Shown here: in pieces, positions 19,263 through 49,728 of the stretch
Position numbering within the stretch: the stretch's first letter is position 1
Layout of the letters: each line of letters starts with the position of its first letter
Assembly: GCF_030064675.1 (NCBI RefSeq)
Contig: NZ_CP116413.1
Coordinates: 8,213,501 to 8,277,500 of the forward strand
From: Crossiella sp. CA-258035
GTDB lineage: Bacteria > Actinomycetota > Actinomycetes > Mycobacteriales > Pseudonocardiaceae
DNA length: 64,000 nucleotides
Reading direction: 5' to 3'
Notes under the pieces: generated by a model
The model's database searches: none
What the model saw: only the letters and a program-made list of their open reading frames with translations
What the model was told of the DNA's origin: nothing
Made by a program: the position numbers and the translations under genes

Positions 19263-20162
19263 CTATTGTCGCTTTTCGGTCACCCTGGGTACATGCCGCA
19301 GCCAGTCCCGAGGCCCCGGATACCGCACCCGCACCGAAGCCACCCCCGCCGCCCAAGCCAGGTGCTCCGCCAGCTCCGCGGCCACCCAGCCCCGCTCCGC
19401 CACCGAGCTCGCGAACGCCCCGTGCAAGGCGTCCCCCGCCCCCAGCGTGTCCCGCACCGGCACCCGCGGCACGGCCACTTCCCCGGTCCCCAGCCCCTGG
19501 TCCCAGTAGACGATCGGCTCCCCGCCCGCGGTCATCGCCCCGGTCCGCACGATCCCCCGCAACGCCGCCAGCGTGTCCGCCCGACCGTCCTGACCAGGGA
19601 GTCGGTAGTCCCCGGAGCAGATCACCACATCGGCGGCGGCGAGCAGTTCGTCATGGTGCGGCCGGTACCGCCCCGCGTCGAAGACCACTGGCGCACTGGC
19701 CCGGACGGCGGCCCCGGCCAGGTCCGGATGGTGGCCGTCGATGAGCACAACGTCGGCCGCGGCAAGCAGAGCGGACAGGTCCGCCGGCGGCCTCGCGGAC
19801 ACCCCGCCCGCGTCGGTGGACACGATGTTCCGGTCCCCGGTCCGCTCGTGCACGGTGATCGCGGAGACCGCGGGCGGCAGCTGCCGGTCGGGCGTGCAGT
19901 CACGCACGGTTATACCGAAACCAGCCAGTTCCTGGCGGATGAGACGTGCCAACGGGTGATCTCCGAGTGCGGTCAGGAGAGTGACGGCGGATCCGGTGGC
20001 GGCGGCGGTAACCGCGGCGTTACATGCGGGACCACCAGCGGCGACGTCCTGGCGGGTGGCGGTGACCTTGCGGTTGGGGGCAGGGAAGTCGGGGACGCGG
20101 TGCAGGACGTCGAGGGTGGCCAGTCCAACGCACAGCACCCGCCCTGGAATGTGACCGGTCAT
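19263..20162 (-). CDS. PfkB-family carbohydrate kinase
   Basis: This is a ribokinase-fold sugar or nucleoside kinase of unknown specificity. The 299-residue protein has the N-terminal VLCVGLATLDVLHRV, a GGPACNAAVTAAATG glycine-rich segment, LTALGDHPLARLIRQEL, and the C-terminal PfkB signature DTLGAGDALHGAF, whose second Asp is the catalytic base and whose GAGD forms the anion hole. The ATG at 20162 lies within a copy of the repeat that forms the 30-bp array upstream, so the first residues MTGHI come from that repeat. The array probably bears on its expression. Confidence 0.88.
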   Translation of the reverse strand: MTGHIPGRVLCVGLATLDVLHRVPDFPAPNRKVTATRQDVAAGGPACNAAVTAAATGSAVTLLTALGDHPLARLIRQELAGFGITVRDCTPDRQLPPAVSAITVHERTGDRNIVSTDAGGVSARPPADLSALLAAADVVLIDGHHPDLAGAAVRASAPVVFDAGRYRPHHDELLAAADVVICSGDYRLPGQDGRADTLAALRGIVRTGAMTAGGEPIVYWDQGLGTGEVAVPRVPVRDTLGAGDALHGAFASSVAERGWVAAELAEHLAWAAGVASVRVRYPGPRDWLRHVPRVTEKRQ

Positions 20163-20164
20163 CT
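20147..20164 (+). repeat. Isolated repeat copy spanning the pfkB start codon
   Basis: This is a single copy of the GAATGTGACCGGTC core, with ATCT in place of GTCT at its end. On the minus strand it supplies the ATG and first codons of the PfkB kinase. It lies 117 bp from the first tandem copy. Confidence 0.8.
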
Positions 20165-20263
20165 CACCGTGCTTTCTGGTTGGTGGGTGGCTGACACCCG
20201 GCAGTCTCGCTCACCTCGCCGATGGTCGGCACAGCACGCCTGGCACCTCGACCGCCCGGCTGG

Positions 20264-20462
20264 CAATGTGACCGGTCGTCTTGAGTTAGCTGCGAATATG
20301 ACCGGTCGTCTTCAACCCGTGGTGAATGTGACCGGTCGTCTCGTACAGCTCGCGAATGTGACCGGTCGTCTCGTGAAGCCCACGAATATGACCGGTCGTC
20401 TCATGCAGCCCGCGAATGTGACCGGTCGTCTCACGCAGCTGCTGAATGTGACCGGTCGTCTT
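20264..20462 (+). repeat. Seven-copy 30-bp tandem repeat array upstream of pfkB
   Basis: Seven units start at 20264, 20294, 20324, 20354, 20384, 20414 and 20444, exactly 30 bp apart. Each carries an 18-bp core, (G/C)AAT(G/A)TGACCGGTCGTCT, containing the palindrome GACCGGTC, followed by a variable 12-bp spacer. The 12 bases TGACCGGTCGTC are invariant. The period equals about three helical turns, which would place the palindromes on one DNA face. It is not CRISPR: the spacers are far too short and no cas genes are present. On the minus strand the period keeps a frame open that reads RRPVTF decapeptides. Confidence 0.9.
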
Positions 20463-20572
20463 AAATCTCCCACGCGCGACTCCGCCCGGATTCGCTCCCG
20501 CCCGCCCAGCCCCGCACCCCTAAGACGACCGGTCACATTGACTCCGGCCAGCGAACCGGCCGGAGCGCTCAC
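20312..20572 (-). CDS. Possible decapeptide-repeat ORF read from the 30-bp array
   Basis: The GTG at 20572 overlaps the DUF885 stop as GTGA. The frame runs 86 codons through the inverted copy (VNVTGRL) and five array units, giving RRPVTF followed by four variable residues each time. There is no ribosome site of note. Because the period is a multiple of three, the open frame may be a by-product of the array. I list it because of the stop/start overlap, with low confidence that it is translated. Confidence 0.2.
   Translation of the reverse strand: MSAPAGSLAGVNVTGRLRGAGLGGRERIRAESRVGDLRRPVTFSSCVRRPVTFAGCMRRPVIFVGFTRRPVTFASCTRRPVTFTTG
20522..20539 (-). repeat. Inverted copy of the array core
   Basis: An 18-bp copy of the array core (AATGTGACCGGTCGTCTT on the minus strand) lies 60 bp beyond the last tandem unit in inverse orientation, 30 nt from the stop of the DUF885 gene. 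Confidence 0.85.
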
Positions 20573-21804
20573 CCGACCCTCGGCACCGCCGGAATGTCCG
20601 CCGCGATCTCCGCCCGCACCCCAGCCGGAATCAACGGCTCATCCAGCAACCGCCGATACCGCTCCGCCACCGTCTCCCCCGAAGGCCGCGCGTTCAACCA
20701 CGTCCGCAACAGCCGGTACCCCTCCACATACGTCGTCGTATAGGCCCGCCACAGCGGGTCCGACAGGAACCGGATCATCTGCCGGGCGCGGGCGTCGGTG
20801 CACAGCAGCCAGCGGCGCAGGAACATGGCGACCTCGTCCACGTCGGCGCCCCGGTCGTGCAGCATGAGGGCGGCGTCCTGGCGGACGGTGGCGAGCTTGC
20901 CCAGGGCGCCTTCGAGGCGTTCCTGTTGTTCGCCTTCCATGCGCAGGCCCAGGTCACCAACGATCTCCTGGGTCCAGGTGCCCCAGCCGGAGCCGATGAC
21001 GGCGTGCAGGCCCAGGTCGGCGAGGCCTTCGGCCATCAGGCATTGCGGGGTGTTGACCAGGAAGATCGTTTGTTCGGTCTGGCCGAGGGTGCCGACCAGG
21101 CCCGCTTCCTTCCGGCAGTGCTCGGTGTGGTGGCCGGGGTAGGACTCGTGCGCGACCAGGTGCGGGAGGTTGGCCATGCGGTGGCCGAGGTCGGCGTTGA
21201 TGGCGACCCTGGAGTGGTAGTCGCCGAGGTAGTAGTTGAAGCCGCTCCACGGTTTGTCCGCGACGATCTCGTAGTCGACGACCTCCTGCTCCGGCAGGCC
21301 GAAGGTGCCGCGGACCTCGTCGCGCAGCGCGCTGGAGAGGGCGTGCACCGCGGGTTCCAGCTTGTCCGGGGGGACCAGGTCTCGGGCGCGGAAGGTGCTC
21401 AGGCGGGTTTCCAGCGAGCCCTCGCCGGGCAGCAGGTCCGACAGCTCGGCGTGCGCGGCGCGGTAGTCGTCCTGTTCGCCGGGGGTGATCCGGACCTGGA
21501 AGTAGGCCTCGACCTCCTCGACGAAGGAGACCGCTTCCCCGGCGAGCTTGCGGCCGGAGCACTCCAGCGCGACCAGGTGCGCGTCCAGGAAGGCGACGCG
21601 TTCCGGTTCGAGGTTGATGCCGACCAGCTCCGCGCGCAGCTCCCTGGCCCTGGCGGCCAGTGCCTCCGGATCGGGGCGGGCTTCGGCGAGCACCTGCCGC
21701 CGCAGCGCGGGATCGCCGGTGTAGGCGTCGACGAAACCGTCGACCAGGCGGTCGAACCGCAGGCCGAGCAACAGGTACTCGCGTACGAGCTGATGTCCCT
21801 CCAC
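20569..21804 (-). CDS. DUF885 family protein (metallopeptidase-like)
   Basis: The 411-residue protein belongs to the DUF885 family of putative zinc peptidases. The signature HESYPGHHTEHCRKE resembles the gluzincin HExxH arrangement of the family, followed by a helical C-terminal half. I start at GTG 21804, behind AGGGTCC. A longer open frame to 22377 is only antisense noise over the prenyl transferase gene. No signal peptide is visible, so it is likely cytoplasmic. It follows the prenyl transferase by 29 nt in the same direction. Confidence 0.82.
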   Translation of the reverse strand: MEGHQLVREYLLLGLRFDRLVDGFVDAYTGDPALRRQVLAEARPDPEALAARARELRAELVGINLEPERVAFLDAHLVALECSGRKLAGEAVSFVEEVEAYFQVRITPGEQDDYRAAHAELSDLLPGEGSLETRLSTFRARDLVPPDKLEPAVHALSSALRDEVRGTFGLPEQEVVDYEIVADKPWSGFNYYLGDYHSRVAINADLGHRMANLPHLVAHESYPGHHTEHCRKEAGLVGTLGQTEQTIFLVNTPQCLMAEGLADLGLHAVIGSGWGTWTQEIVGDLGLRMEGEQQERLEGALGKLATVRQDAALMLHDRGADVDEVAMFLRRWLLCTDARARQMIRFLSDPLWRAYTTTYVEGYRLLRTWLNARPSGETVAERYRRLLDEPLIPAGVRAEIAADIPAVPRVG

Positions 21805-21833
21805 CGCGCGGACCCTACGCCAGCGGTCTGGGA

Positions 21834-22613
21834 CTACGAGCCGAAACGCCGGTGCCGGGCGGCGTAGGCGCGCAGCGCGCGCAGGAAGTCGATGCGGCGG
21901 AACTCCGGCCAGTATGCCTCGCAGAACCAGAACTCCGAGTGCGCGGACTGCCAGAGCAGGAAGCCGGAGAGGCGCTGTTCGCCGGAGGTGCGGATGAGCA
22001 GGTCGGGGTCGGGCTGGCCGGAGGTGTAGAGGTGCTCGGCGATGTGGTCGACGTCGAGGACCTCGGCCAGTTCCTCGATGGTGGTGCCTGCCTCGGCGTG
22101 CTGGAGCAGCAGCTTGCGCACCGCGTCGGCGATCTCCCTGCGGCCGCCGTAGCCGACCGCGACGTTGACCTCCATGCCGTCGCGGTCCCTGGTGCGCAGC
22201 GCCGCCGCGGACAGCCGCGCCGCGGTCTCGGTGGGCAGCAGGTCCAGCGCGCCCACGATGCGCACCCGCAGGCCGGTGCCGGGCTCGGTGAGCTCGTCCA
22301 CCACGCCGGCGATGATGTCCAGCAGCGGGTTCAGCTCCTCCGGCGGCCGGTCCAGGTTGTCGGTGGAGAGCAGCCACAGGGTGACCACCTCGACGCCGAC
22401 CTCACGGCACCAGCCGAGCATCTGCTCGATCTTCTGCGCGCCGATCCGGTGCCCGTCGTTGACGTCGACGAGTCCCGCTTCCTTGGCCCACCTGCGGTTT
22501 CCGTCCAGGATCACGCCGACGTGGCGGGGATGTTCCACCCCGATCAGGCCACGGCGCAGCCGCCACTCGTAACCGATTTCGAGCAGATCGCGTACTCGCT
22601 GACGTACACCCAC
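21834..22613 (-). CDS. uppS: Z-isoprenyl diphosphate synthase (short-chain, Rv1086-like)
   Basis: The cis-prenyl transferase condenses isopentenyl diphosphate onto an allylic primer. The best match is the mycobacterial Z,E-farnesyl diphosphate synthase Rv1086, which makes the first intermediate of decaprenyl phosphate. Motifs are HVGVILDGNRRWA (catalytic Asp), LWLLSTDNLDRPPEE, VAVGYGGRREI and RTSGEQRLSGFLLWQ. GTG 22613 gives 259 residues, close to the 262 of Rv1086; the 292-codon frame is too long. It is divergent from the CoA-binding gene across 40 nt. Confidence 0.9.
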   Translation of the reverse strand: MGVRQRVRDLLEIGYEWRLRRGLIGVEHPRHVGVILDGNRRWAKEAGLVDVNDGHRIGAQKIEQMLGWCREVGVEVVTLWLLSTDNLDRPPEELNPLLDIIAGVVDELTEPGTGLRVRIVGALDLLPTETAARLSAAALRTRDRDGMEVNVAVGYGGRREIADAVRKLLLQHAEAGTTIEELAEVLDVDHIAEHLYTSGQPDPDLLIRTSGEQRLSGFLLWQSAHSEFWFCEAYWPEFRRIDFLRALRAYAARHRRFGS

Positions 22614-39062: not shown

Positions 39063-39826
39063 GCTTGCAAGACCTGGACACCACCGTGCTGGCAGGTGTC
39101 GTCGCGGAACAGGACCGGCCGCTGGTGTTCGCCGCCGTCTCCGGCGCGCACCTCTACGGCTTCCCGTCCCAGGACTCCGACGTCGACCTGCGCGGGGTGC
39201 ACCTGCTGGCCACCAGCGAGCTGGCCGGGCTGCGCTACGGGCCGGAGACGGTGGAGCGGATGTGGCAGCACGAGGGGACCGAGCTGGACCTGGTCACCCA
39301 CGACATCGCCAAGTTCGCCCGGCTGCTGCTGCGCCCCAACGGCTACGTGGCCGAGCAGCTGCTCTCCCCGCTGGTGGTGCACACCACGCAGGCGCACCAG
39401 GAGCTGATCGCGCTCGCGCCGGGCTTCCTGACCAGCAGGCACGCCCACCACTACCGCGGTTTCGCCAAGACCCAGTGGCGGCTGTTCGAGCGCAACGGCG
39501 AGCTGAAACCGCTGCTCTACACCTTCCGCGCGCTGCTGACCGGGGTGCACCTGATGCGCACCGGGGCGGTGCTGGCCCACCTGCCCACGCTGATCGAGGA
39601 GCAGGGCGGTCCTGGCTACCTGAAGGAGCTGATCGCGGCCAAGGTCGAGGGCGAGCACCGGCCGCTGGACTCGGTGCCGGGCGCGCCGGACGCGGAGACG
39701 CTGGCCGCGGACCTGCTCAGCTGGCTGGAGTGGCTGGACGTGGCGGAGAACGGCTCGGCGCTGCCCCAGGAACCCTCGGTGCACGAGGAGATGCACCAGC
39801 TGGTGCTGCGGCTGCGGCCGAACTAG
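39059..39826 (+). CDS. RlaP-type nucleotidyltransferase (second of pair)
   Basis: The 255-residue product is a second, divergent COG3541-type protein. The active-site region reads SGAHLYGFPSQDSDVDLRGVHLL: the Asp-x-Asp pair is kept but the Ser of the usual GS is replaced by Ala. The rest includes DIAKFARLLLRPNGYVAEQLLSP and TLFERNGELKPLLYTFRALLTGVHLMRTG-like helices. GTG 39059 overlaps the first paralog by 4 nt and has GAAGGAGAG upstream. Tandem, unequal copies suggest a heterodimer or split functions. It ends the Hen1-Pnkp operon. Confidence 0.85.
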   Translation: MSLQDLDTTVLAGVVAEQDRPLVFAAVSGAHLYGFPSQDSDVDLRGVHLLATSELAGLRYGPETVERMWQHEGTELDLVTHDIAKFARLLLRPNGYVAEQLLSPLVVHTTQAHQELIALAPGFLTSRHAHHYRGFAKTQWRLFERNGELKPLLYTFRALLTGVHLMRTGAVLAHLPTLIEEQGGPGYLKELIAAKVEGEHRPLDSVPGAPDAETLAADLLSWLEWLDVAENGSALPQEPSVHEEMHQLVLRLRPN

Positions 39827-39862
39827 CTTTCCAGCACCCGCACGCACCAGGTAGGAGACGTC

Positions 39863-40072
39863 ATGACCGCCGCCAAGGGCCCGGCCAGCTACTTCCCCTC
39901 GATCGAGGCCAAGTACGGCCGTCCGATCAGCGAGTGGCAGGAGCTCATCCGGGCCGCCGGGCCGACCAAGCACGGCGAGCTGGTCACCTGGCTCAAGCAG
40001 GAGCACGGCCTCGGGCACGGGCATGCCAACGCCCTGGTCGCGCACACCCTGGCCGAGGACCGCGGCAAGTGA
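39863..40072 (+). CDS. DUF4287 domain protein
   Basis: The 69-residue protein is a single DUF4287 domain: SYFPSIEAKYGRPISEWQELI, then HGELVTWLKQEHGLGHGHANALVAHTL. The helical domain is common in actinobacteria, sometimes fused to DUF5655; its role is unknown. ATG 39863 has GTAGGAG upstream and follows the second nucleotidyltransferase by 36 nt, so it may be co-transcribed with the RNA-repair genes. Confidence 0.88.
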   Translation: MTAAKGPASYFPSIEAKYGRPISEWQELIRAAGPTKHGELVTWLKQEHGLGHGHANALVAHTLAEDRGK

Positions 40073-40076
40073 GCCG

Positions 40077-40430
40077 CTAGGCCTCCGGCTGGGCCGCCTT
40101 GGCCACCGGCTTGCCGGCCGGCCCAGCCACCGCGGCGGCTTCCGGACCGGCCGCCGCCTCATCCTCGGGCTCGGCGGCGGGCTTTTCCCCTGCCGTCGTG
40201 CCCTCGGCCGGGGCGTCCTTGTCGAAGCTCTGCGGCAGCTTGCGCAGGTGCTTGTTCATCGAGCGCACCAGGAAGCCCACCGCGATGAAGAACAGGATCA
40301 GCAGGACCAGCCCCACCGGGCTGGACTTGCCGAAGTCCTCGCCGCGGCCGCCGGGCTCTTCCGGCTTCTTCGGCTGGGCCACCACGAGAGCGGTCGTCTC
40401 GTGGTGGCCAACCGTGTCGAGCAAAGTCAT
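40077..40430 (-). CDS. Single-pass membrane protein downstream of mca (Rv1081c-like)
   Basis: The 117-residue protein has one transmembrane helix ([19 protein letters not shown], about residues 36-55) followed by [11 protein letters not shown] and a Glu/Ala/Pro-rich tail. The ATG at 40430 overlaps the mca stop as ATGA, so it is translationally coupled. The same pairing occurs in mycobacteria (Rv1081c next to mca Rv1082). It could anchor or accompany mycothiol-related export, but no function is known. Confidence 0.8.
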
Positions 40431-48606: not shown

Positions 48607-49728
48607 TCAGTAGCCGGGGTAACCGCCGCCACCCTGGCCGTAGGGCTGCTGCGGGTAGCCGCCCTGCTGCGGGCGCTGCGCCTGCTTGAGCTTCATGCCC
48701 GCCGTGGTCGACGGCAGCCACCAGACCACCAGGATGGTGACCCAGAACAGCAGCGGCAGGATGCCCAGGATCCCGATCATGCCGATGCTGCCGAGCGAGA
48801 CGAGGCCACCGAGCACACCGATACCGGCCAGCACGGTGATGGTGATCCGGGCCCAGTTGGCGCCCTGCGAGCCGGCCAGGAAGCCCAGCACGCCAACACC
48901 GGCGGCGATCAGCATGCCGATGATGACGGGCACGTAGAGCCCGGCGGTGGCGTAGCGCGAGGGGATGCCCGCCAGGTTGATCAGGCTGATGATGTTCAGG
49001 ATCAGCACCAGACCGGTGATGCCGACCGTGACCCACATGGCCATCGGCAGCGTGTTGCTGCCGCCACCGGACTGGCCGTAGGGCTGCGCGCCGTAGCCCT
49101 GCTGCTGGCCACCCCAGCCCTGCTGCTGCTGGCCGTAGCCCTGCTGCGGCTGCTGGCCCCACTGCTGCTGGCCGGGCTGCTGCTGGGCCTGCTGGCCCCA
49201 CTGCTGCTGCGGCTGCGGGCCGGTGCCCGGCTGCTGACCCCACTGCTGCTGGGGCTGGCCGCCGGTCTGCGGGTAGCCGGGCTGTGCCTGCTGCTGCTGG
49301 CCCCACTGCTGCTGGCCCGGCTGCGGCTGCTGGGGCTGCTGACCCCACTGCTGCTGCGGCTGCGCCTGCGGCCCGGTGGGCTGCTGGCCGCCCTGCTGGG
49401 CGAAGGACGGCGGGGTGTACTGCGGTGTCACCGGCGGCTGCTGGCCGGGCGGCACCACCTGGGTGGCATCCGGCGCCGGCGCGGCCGGGGTGGCACCCGG
49501 CTGGACCACCTGGGTGGCCTCCGGGTTGGCGGGCGCCGCTTGCTGCCCCGCAGAGGAGCCCAGCGCCGAGGAGATCACCTGGGTGGTGTCGGCGTGCGGC
49601 GTGTGCGTGGTCGTCGGCAGACCCTGCGCCGGAGATGGCGTCGGGTCGGCCGCGCCACTCTGCGGATCAGCCTGCGGCTGCCCACCCTGGCCCTGGTATG
49701 GCTGCTGGGGCGGCTGCGGAGCGCTCAT
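48607..49728 (-). CDS. Q/P-rich membrane protein (Pra-like)
   Basis: The 373-residue protein, from ATG 49728 with AAGGAA upstream, has a long low-complexity cytoplasmic N-terminal half rich in Gln, Pro and Gly. Five copies of QQQWGQQ occur within about 90 residues. Four transmembrane helices follow (from MAMWVTVGITGLVLILNIISL to LLFWVTILVVWWLP) and then a short GGYPQQPYGQGGGGYPGY tail. Position between metB and cbs matches the mycobacterial proline-rich antigen Pra (Rv1078). The function of that protein is unknown; a scaffold or phase-separating role is speculative. Confidence 0.8.
   Translation of the reverse strand: MSAPQPPQQPYQGQGGQPQADPQSGAADPTPSPAQGLPTTTHTPHADTTQVISSALGSSAGQQAAPANPEATQVVQPGATPAAPAPDATQVVPPGQQPPVTPQYTPPSFAQQGGQQPTGPQAQPQQQWGQQPQQPQPGQQQWGQQQQAQPGYPQTGGQPQQQWGQQPGTGPQPQQQWGQQAQQQPGQQQWGQQPQQGYGQQQQGWGGQQQGYGAQPYGQSGGGSNTLPMAMWVTVGITGLVLILNIISLINLAGIPSRYATAGLYVPVIIGMLIAAGVGVLGFLAGSQGANWARITITVLAGIGVLGGLVSLGSIGMIGILGILPLLFWVTILVVWWLPSTTAGMKLKQAQRPQQGGYPQQPYGQGGGGYPGY

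Follow-up and report, generated by a model that had tools for sequence, protein, structure and literature searches.

Repressors of the TetR family are usually thought of as acting through one operator or a few. SlmA and RefZ are TetR-family proteins with dispersed chromosomal sites, the tetO and lacO arrays of FROS are engineered operator arrays, and the REP and MITE-like elements are dispersed palindromic repeats of bacteria. The Pfam domain TetR_C_13 is presumably the C-terminal domain of repressors of the NemR/AltR type. Both NemR and AltR are described, in an excerpt of PMC13178969, as repressing their own promoters via inverted repeats. The AcuR operator of Rhodobacter sphaeroides (acuR-acuI-dddL) is given in an excerpt of PMC3017554 as TAATAGAC-N6-GTCTATTA and overlaps the leaderless promoter before acuR. 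DitR of Stenotrophomonas maltophilia is a TetR repressor with three DitR boxes in one promoter (PMC9342713, excerpt), and synthetic tetO DNA sponges have been built from tandem operators separated by random spacers of 10-30 bp (PMC7686491, excerpt).

The 64,000-nt stretch analysed here (the window) carries, upstream of a pfkB-family gene, an array of an 18-bp imperfect palindrome that recurs elsewhere in the same genome. The reading that we favour, and consider fairly probable, is that these repeats are multiplied operators of one probably autoregulated AcuR/NemR-type TetR repressor, that their multiplication is recent, and that they probably titrate this repressor and perhaps also control some neighbouring genes, including pfkB. 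As in the AcuR system, so far as the excerpt describes it, a TetR repressor gene lies beside a reductase gene, an inverted-repeat operator lies across the promoter immediately upstream of the regulator's start codon, and the layout is of the leaderless type; unlike that system, the core here is AAGACGACCGGTCATATT, about 50 copies occur in clusters and the repressor falls below the cut-off of the AcuR model. The core does not match the AcuR operator sequence. With NemR and AltR the repressor shares the TetR_C_13 domain, and NemR (4yze) is among its structure matches, but the excerpt of PMC13178969 mentions no dispersed arrays for either protein. Several boxes per promoter are a feature in common with DitR, whose boxes have another sequence and lie in one promoter, with no dispersal mentioned in the excerpt of PMC9342713. 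Engineered arrays likewise consist of tandem TetR-type operators with variable spacers, but they are man-made, whereas the present ones occur naturally, dispersed over a chromosome. Points of likeness with SlmA and RefZ are the TetR fold, dispersed palindromic sites and a possible bias to the origin half; here, in contrast, the sites are clustered, numerous in one species only, apparently derived from a local operator and without an evident link to division. REP and MITE-like elements are also multi-copy palindromes in extragenic inserts, but the unit here is a bare 18-bp operator. The parts of this arrangement, which resembles the arrays used by engineers for chromosome tagging or for soaking up a repressor, are known; among the entries listed by searches of the open-licence literature, none reported a natural array or multiplication of this operator, and the arrangement is very unusual.

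The array upstream of pfkB

The conserved unit is 18 bp long (AATRTGACCGGTCRTCTY) and, where intact, forms an imperfect palindrome of two half-sites around GACCGGTC. Seven exact plus-strand copies of the 12-mer TGACCGGTCGTC start at 20269, 20299, 20329, 20359, 20389, 20419 and 20449, a step of exactly 30 bp, and belong to operator copies 1 to 7 at 20265..20282, 20295..20312, 20325..20342, 20355..20372, 20385..20402, 20415..20432 and 20445..20462 (all +). Tandem Repeats Finder delimits the array as 20265-20462 with period 30, and the seven copies at 30-bp steps that an initial annotation had described were confirmed in place by pattern search, shuffles and this program. The same annotation had put an eighth copy on the pfkB ATG; the operator copy AATGTGACCGGTCATCTC at 20148..20165 (+) does overlap the predicted start codon, which is on the minus strand, but its 12-mer at 20152 (TGACCGGTCATC) has one mismatch to the sequence that had been called invariant. 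The distal ninth copy is inverted, as described, and lies at 20522..20539 (-), close to the end of the upstream gene, with its 12-mer at 20524-20535, 63 bp from the last 12-mer of the array. With up to one mismatch allowed, nine matches to the 12-mer occur in the window, against a mean of 0.89 and a maximum of 3 in 100 shuffles.

Array and inverted copy occupy a 406-bp separator (20163..20568, no strand assigned) between two genes of the minus strand. The downstream gene (19263..20162, -) encodes a pfkB-family (ribokinase-like) carbohydrate kinase with a Pfam PfkB match of 1.6e-28 and no NCBIfam model above cut-off; its start codon is uncertain, and its predicted N-terminus, MTGHIPGR, is partly operator-derived. 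Upstream of it lies a gene whose longest open frame (20569..22377, -) contains HESYPGHH, the true start being further in. The long frame has no Pfam family and the shorter form yielded one below-cut-off match only; a provisional DUF885 label for this gene was dropped, as Pfam gave no such match. Directly 3' of the upstream stop codon lies a GC-rich hairpin with an 11-bp stem (20541..20566, -), terminator-like but without a T run (-25.6 kcal/mol over 51 nt, z -2.34; 2 of 200 shuffles equally good). In what follows, G000 is the genome of the window, G004 a second genome of the same species, and G001, G002 and G003 are congeners; L-numbers denote the regions compared. In G001 and G003 the upstream gene ends in a stop codon that overlaps the probable start of pfkB, and in G002 the two genes nearly abut, versus 406 bp between them in G000, and the unaligned gap upstream of pfkB measures 431 bp in G000 versus 18 bp in G001. 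A gene pair that adjoins in relatives has been pulled apart by operator insertion.

On the minus strand, CGGGTGAG is found after the upstream stop region (window 20568-20575) and CGGTGAG before the predicted pfkB ATG (20163-20168); in the G004 counterpart (L061, L076), CGGGTGAG stands before the predicted pfkB ATG. The CGGGTGAG/CGGTGAG pair is perhaps a target duplication around the window insert.

That the array is not a CRISPR, parS or iteron locus, as the initial annotation held, agrees with the domain content of 20 neighbouring proteins scanned, among which no cas, replication or par domain was detected. All three were rejected also on the occurrence of the same core in a TetR operator-like site, and CRISPR in addition on its 12-bp spacers, which are weakly related to one another (57% difference versus 71% at random).

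Distribution of the unit in the genome and in relatives

The G000 genome, a single contig of 9.17 Mb with dnaA at position 34, contains 45 exact copies of the 18-mer (32 forward and 13 reverse; 0 for the reversed control pattern). The 16-mer AATRTGACCGGTCRTC has 46 exact matches, distributed over 12 loci at 0.19, 0.74, 1.43, 1.72, 1.89, 2.42, 2.70, 3.07, 3.17, 3.26, 7.02 and 8.23 Mb, the last being that of the window. All 12 loci lie no more than 3.27 Mb from dnaA and 10 of them on one arm, a pattern noticed after the fact; by a hand estimate made after seeing the data, the chance that 12 random loci would all miss the distal 29% is ~0.017. A census of units matching at least 13 of 18 positions, taken over regions of 11 loci with the L009 array excluded, gave 52 units in G000, 42 of them perfect at all 18 consensus positions, and a similar result in G004 (52 units, 37 perfect). 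Three G000 units score 13-14: the two in L010 and L012 are probably chance matches, and the third, at L013:4967, is possibly a decayed one; the single matches at L016, L019, L021 and L009:6857 fall within open frames of coding-type GC3 and were counted as chance. Variation falls mostly at positions 4 (A/G), 14 (G/A) and 18 (T/C), almost all of it transitions, and then at positions 1 and 3, and information content drops outside 18-20 bp. Duplication of a whole promoter was rejected because the array copies lack a conserved -35 hexamer next to them.

The 18-mer has 40 exact copies in G004 versus one in each of the three congeners. Counting exact matches only, as throughout for genus, family and phylum, copies occur in 12 of 150 family genomes, with a maximum of two outside the species, and the only match in a sample of 396 genomes of the phylum is G000 itself. 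Within this one species, the site of a single regulator has apparently risen from one or two copies to about fifty. The genes flanking the clusters include carbohydrate enzymes (PfkB, a 1-phosphofructokinase-type kinase, GH95, GH36 and GH109) along with cytochrome oxidase subunit IV, CutA, an aldehyde dehydrogenase, a mycothiol-dependent nitroreductase and an MFS transporter; judged from this list, the mixture of carbohydrate enzymes with unrelated functions led us to set aside a sugar-gene regulon.

Centre spacings of up to 100 bp number 35 in G000, of which 16 are 30 bp and the remainder 18, 34/35, 40/41, 45, 59 and 75-82 bp; the L009 array has a period of 42 bp. The 30-bp step occurs at six of the ten G000 regions with at least two units, also between inverted neighbours. 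The initial annotation took this step for three helical turns, but with 10.5 bp per turn a 30-bp step amounts to 2.86 turns, and spacings of 18, 34/35, 40/41 and 42 bp occur in other clusters. Taken at 10.5 bp, the 35 pooled spacings of G000 give R 0.46 with a nominal p of 0.0005, and those of G004 likewise 0.46, a coherence that arises because 30-bp steps dominate; the distinct spacings, again at 10.5 bp, give R 0.02 in G000 (12 values) and 0.24 in G004 (14 values). A helically phased array was rejected, as the spacings share no common phase. The 30-bp step may reflect the packing of dimers or a unit of duplication.

Comparison with G001 covered the window and 11 further regions, eight of which, besides the window, could be aligned across the cluster. 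At all nine loci the extra copies lie in DNA that is absent from G001, by insertion at eight and by replacement at the ninth. The added lengths relative to G001 are 768 bp at L009, 655 bp at L010 (upstream of tetR), 481 bp at L011, 518 bp at L012, 297 bp at L013, 1751 bp at L014 and 277 bp at L015; at L017, 440 bp replace 1414 bp of G001. L018 and L020 lack a counterpart in the G001 stretches and L073 has a partial one, and for these the absence of extra copies follows from the single exact copy in G001. The orientation of the outermost copies varies between loci, a possible direct repeat is present at the window locus only, and no terminal sequence shared by the inserts inspected was seen by eye.

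Two of the insertions lie in unexpected surroundings for an operator. The 768-bp insert at L009 (L009:5009-5774; G000:C1:189008-189773) is an array of 42-bp period with 17-18 in-register units, 11 of them with intact GACCGGTC; the first few and the last are intact, and many in the middle are decayed. One frame is open through the insert and also through the empty site in G001, with 0 stops versus 8 and 20 in the other frames. In G001 this frame matches Nitroreductase at 29.1 bits (cut-off 23.5), with SagB below cut-off; in G000 it reaches no more than 19 bits, with SagB, and has no Pfam match. The frame is likely a gene, an assignment that these scores support weakly. At L013 the cluster is flanked by the 3' ends of two convergent genes, one for cytochrome oxidase subunit IV and the other acetyltransferase-like.

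In the window, three stretches exceed their G001 counterparts by over 100 bp, and two of the three have no operators. One stretch, window 39820-40206, is 296 bp longer, has no operator and appears to contain a small gene. The 2.3-kb stretch L014:4867-7174, which measures 557 bp in G001, contains a YCII-domain gene and one for a sigma factor next to its operators. By eye, L010:4823-5483, L011:5390-5700, L063:5330-5810 and L065 contain low-complexity tracts with short degenerate GC-rich repeats; operator-bearing inserts often have such tracts, as if they came from slippage-prone copying.

The TetR repressor gene and its operator-like site

A TetR-family repressor gene of the AcuR/NemR-like kind lies at G000:C1:738535-739116, corresponding to L010:5536-6117, 0.74 Mb from dnaA. 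The core AAGACGACCGGTCATATT is found 6 nt before its ATG, a second copy stands at the same distance from the ATG of the adjacent alcohol dehydrogenase (ADH) gene, and the two promoters can be read as TTGACA-N17-CATATT (tetR) and TTGACA-N18-CATATT (ADH), with the site spanning the spacer and the -10 element. In all three congeners the sole exact copy lies at this ADH/tetR locus, at the start of the zinc alcohol dehydrogenase gene, which has the TetR gene as its neighbour. The repressor has the domains TetR_N and TetR_C_13. Its best NCBIfam model is AcuR (NF051457), at 120.3 bits where the cut-off is 247, and all 20 NCBIfam models listed fall short of their cut-offs; because the AcuR score is below cut-off, the protein is best described as AcuR-like only. 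Its sequence matches among solved structures include NemR (4yze), and G000 holds a single close copy of the gene, the next best having 33% identity.

Relatives of the repressor were scanned in one genome per species, the best 80 being kept, and the site was sought from 500 bp before to 1.7 kb after each gene start. A site that agrees with the 18-mer at no fewer than 16 of its 18 positions is present for 26 of the 80, in Actinobacteria, Proteobacteria and others alike. For 12 of the 26 it begins 24-26 bp upstream of the ATG, and a score of 16 did not occur in any of 1200 letter-shuffled stretches. At a threshold of at least 15 of 18, the site is present in 33 of the 80, including every one of the first 17 (41-61% identity), although shuffles of three loci also reach this score. 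Many others among the best 80 have TAGACGACCGGTCTA-like variants. Two other family genomes (L058, L059) have the exact site before a hydrolase-like gene beside a TetR gene. In a further two (L060, L074), the exact site precedes an ADH gene and no TetR relative is present in the stretch examined. These associations of site and gene give good support, though by association only, to the view that the repeats are operators for this TetR repressor. The initial annotation had regarded the repeats as sites of a DNA-binding protein; that part is upheld by the 18-mer beside the TetR gene and by the variants beside TetR relatives in other phyla, and its proposal of an assembly centred on pfkB is not.

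Turnover between strains and candidate explanations

At least one core is kept at 11 of the 12 G000 loci in the G004 stretches examined; L020 has no such counterpart, and the L067 site occurs in G004 only. The numbers of copies differ: 9 in G000 versus 12 in G004 in the window, 9 versus 4 at L017, and 1-2 versus 7 at L012/L063, where they lie on opposite sides of a 67-aa open frame. In the G000 window array, the seven cores compared pairwise show no difference at 15 positions and 35% at the three free positions, and the spacers differ by 57% on average versus a random expectation of 71%; the corresponding values in the G004 array are 6%, 42% and 52%. The 15 fixed positions were taken from the consensus itself, so that their constancy is partly built in. 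Some G004 window cores are decayed, as the 6% difference at these positions indicates. The window insert outside the array has 84-85% identity between the strains and other inserts 68 to 90%, the L012 insert aligning no better than shuffled sequence, and seven ordinary intergenic stretches nearby have 92-97% (40-bp flanks included, with slightly different scoring). At fourfold sites in the two flanking genes, the strains diverge by 5-8% from each other and by 26-32% from G001. Most cores are thus retained within insert DNA that apparently evolves faster than the sequence around it.

Under the favoured reading, the ancestor would have had the operator at the alcohol dehydrogenase/tetR locus only, and in this species it would have been multiplied to about 50 copies at 12 places, mostly as clusters in DNA absent from one congener. 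Each copy would bind one repressor dimer, as follows from membership in the TetR family, and would be freed by a ligand, perhaps aldehyde- or electrophile-like; the clusters would jointly hold much of the repressor pool, and bound repressor would also block transcription of the neighbours at some loci, pfkB included. Uncoupling of pfkB from its upstream gene, together with the operator copy covering its predicted start, makes repressor control of pfkB plausible, if unproven. Several observations count against the favoured reading: the flanking genes form no clear regulon, copy number and position shift between strains, promoter control makes no obvious sense at the L009 frame and the convergent locus, some G004 cores are decayed, no -35 box is conserved and no NCBIfam model reaches cut-off. 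The L009 and L013 sites in particular advise caution against a purely regulatory design.

The main rival, which we regard as possible though on balance improbable, is a dispersed and mostly functionless repeat derived from the operator that spreads and expands in tandem with no benefit to its neighbours. Such a repeat would fit the species-specific insertion or replacement at the nine aligned loci, the array inside an open frame with 11 of 17-18 units retaining GACCGGTC, the cluster between convergent genes, the copy numbers and sides (L012/L063) that differ between the two genomes and the decayed G004 cores; it does not predict that variation outside L009 would be confined mostly to positions 4, 14 and 18, as transitions, and then 1 and 3, that most cores would be kept while the surrounding insert is rewritten, or that 11 of 12 loci would keep a core in both genomes. 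The initial annotation had named a dispersed repeat or sequestration array as its alternative, and this comes nearer to the findings than an assembly at pfkB. Rather doubtful is a pure titration sponge, with arrays that act in trans only, lower free repressor and set the response threshold of ADH/tetR. About 50 sites versus two at the natural locus, and bare operators lacking a conserved -35 box, speak for a sponge, and engineered tetO sponges shift the leak and half-response point of TetR circuits (PMC7686491, excerpt); an autoregulated repressor may, however, compensate with more protein, and a trans effect needs no conservation of 11 of 12 positions between two genomes. We consider it unlikely, if worth stating, that the operator is a self-multiplying element: bound clusters would be unstable, for instance through stalled replication and error-prone copying repair, so that they expand locally, are rewritten faster between cores and seed new clusters, with binding keeping the cores intact.

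The remaining readings carry far less weight. A chromosome-organising role like that of SlmA or RefZ, with dispersed sites as positional marks, is very improbable; it draws on the position of all 12 loci within 3.27 Mb of dnaA (the post hoc ~0.017) and on the description of SlmA sites as commoner near the origin (PMC4117426, excerpt), but 10 of the loci lie on one arm, many copies are found in one species only, the protein resembles an ordinary TetR that regulates its neighbour in relatives, and conserved genes may likewise crowd near the origin. Assembly on one helix face at the pfkB promoter, the initial proposal, is largely refuted and slightly more improbable still. The seven units at exactly 30 bp, the copy on the predicted start codon, the 30-bp step at 6 of 10 multi-unit regions and the pooled R of 0.46 had spoken for it, but the array is not unique: such sites at 12 loci, and three congeners with neither array nor intergenic gap upstream of pfkB, tell in part against it, as do the 2.86 turns and the R of 0.02 for distinct spacings. 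Scarcely credible is selection of the repeat as protein code, for N[V/M]TGRL or ETTGHL peptide repeats; frames are open through the window array and the L009 insert (0 stops versus 8 and 20), but spacings of 34, 35, 40, 41 and 59 bp break a single frame at other loci, and a protein-coding origin was rejected everywhere except at L009.

The clusters offer a natural test of the tolerance of operator arrays by cells, of possible regulon growth by insertion and of a possible self-driven expansion of protein-bound repeats. Two other repetitive features were noted in passing. Window 49083-49525 consists of dense overlapping tandem repeats of the GCTGCTG type and is possibly a repetitive coding region, and an identical 16-mer, AATGGGACCGGGCGTT, occurs at G000:C1:96925, 1830703, 2595865 and 7090963, perhaps as part of another repeat or mobile element.
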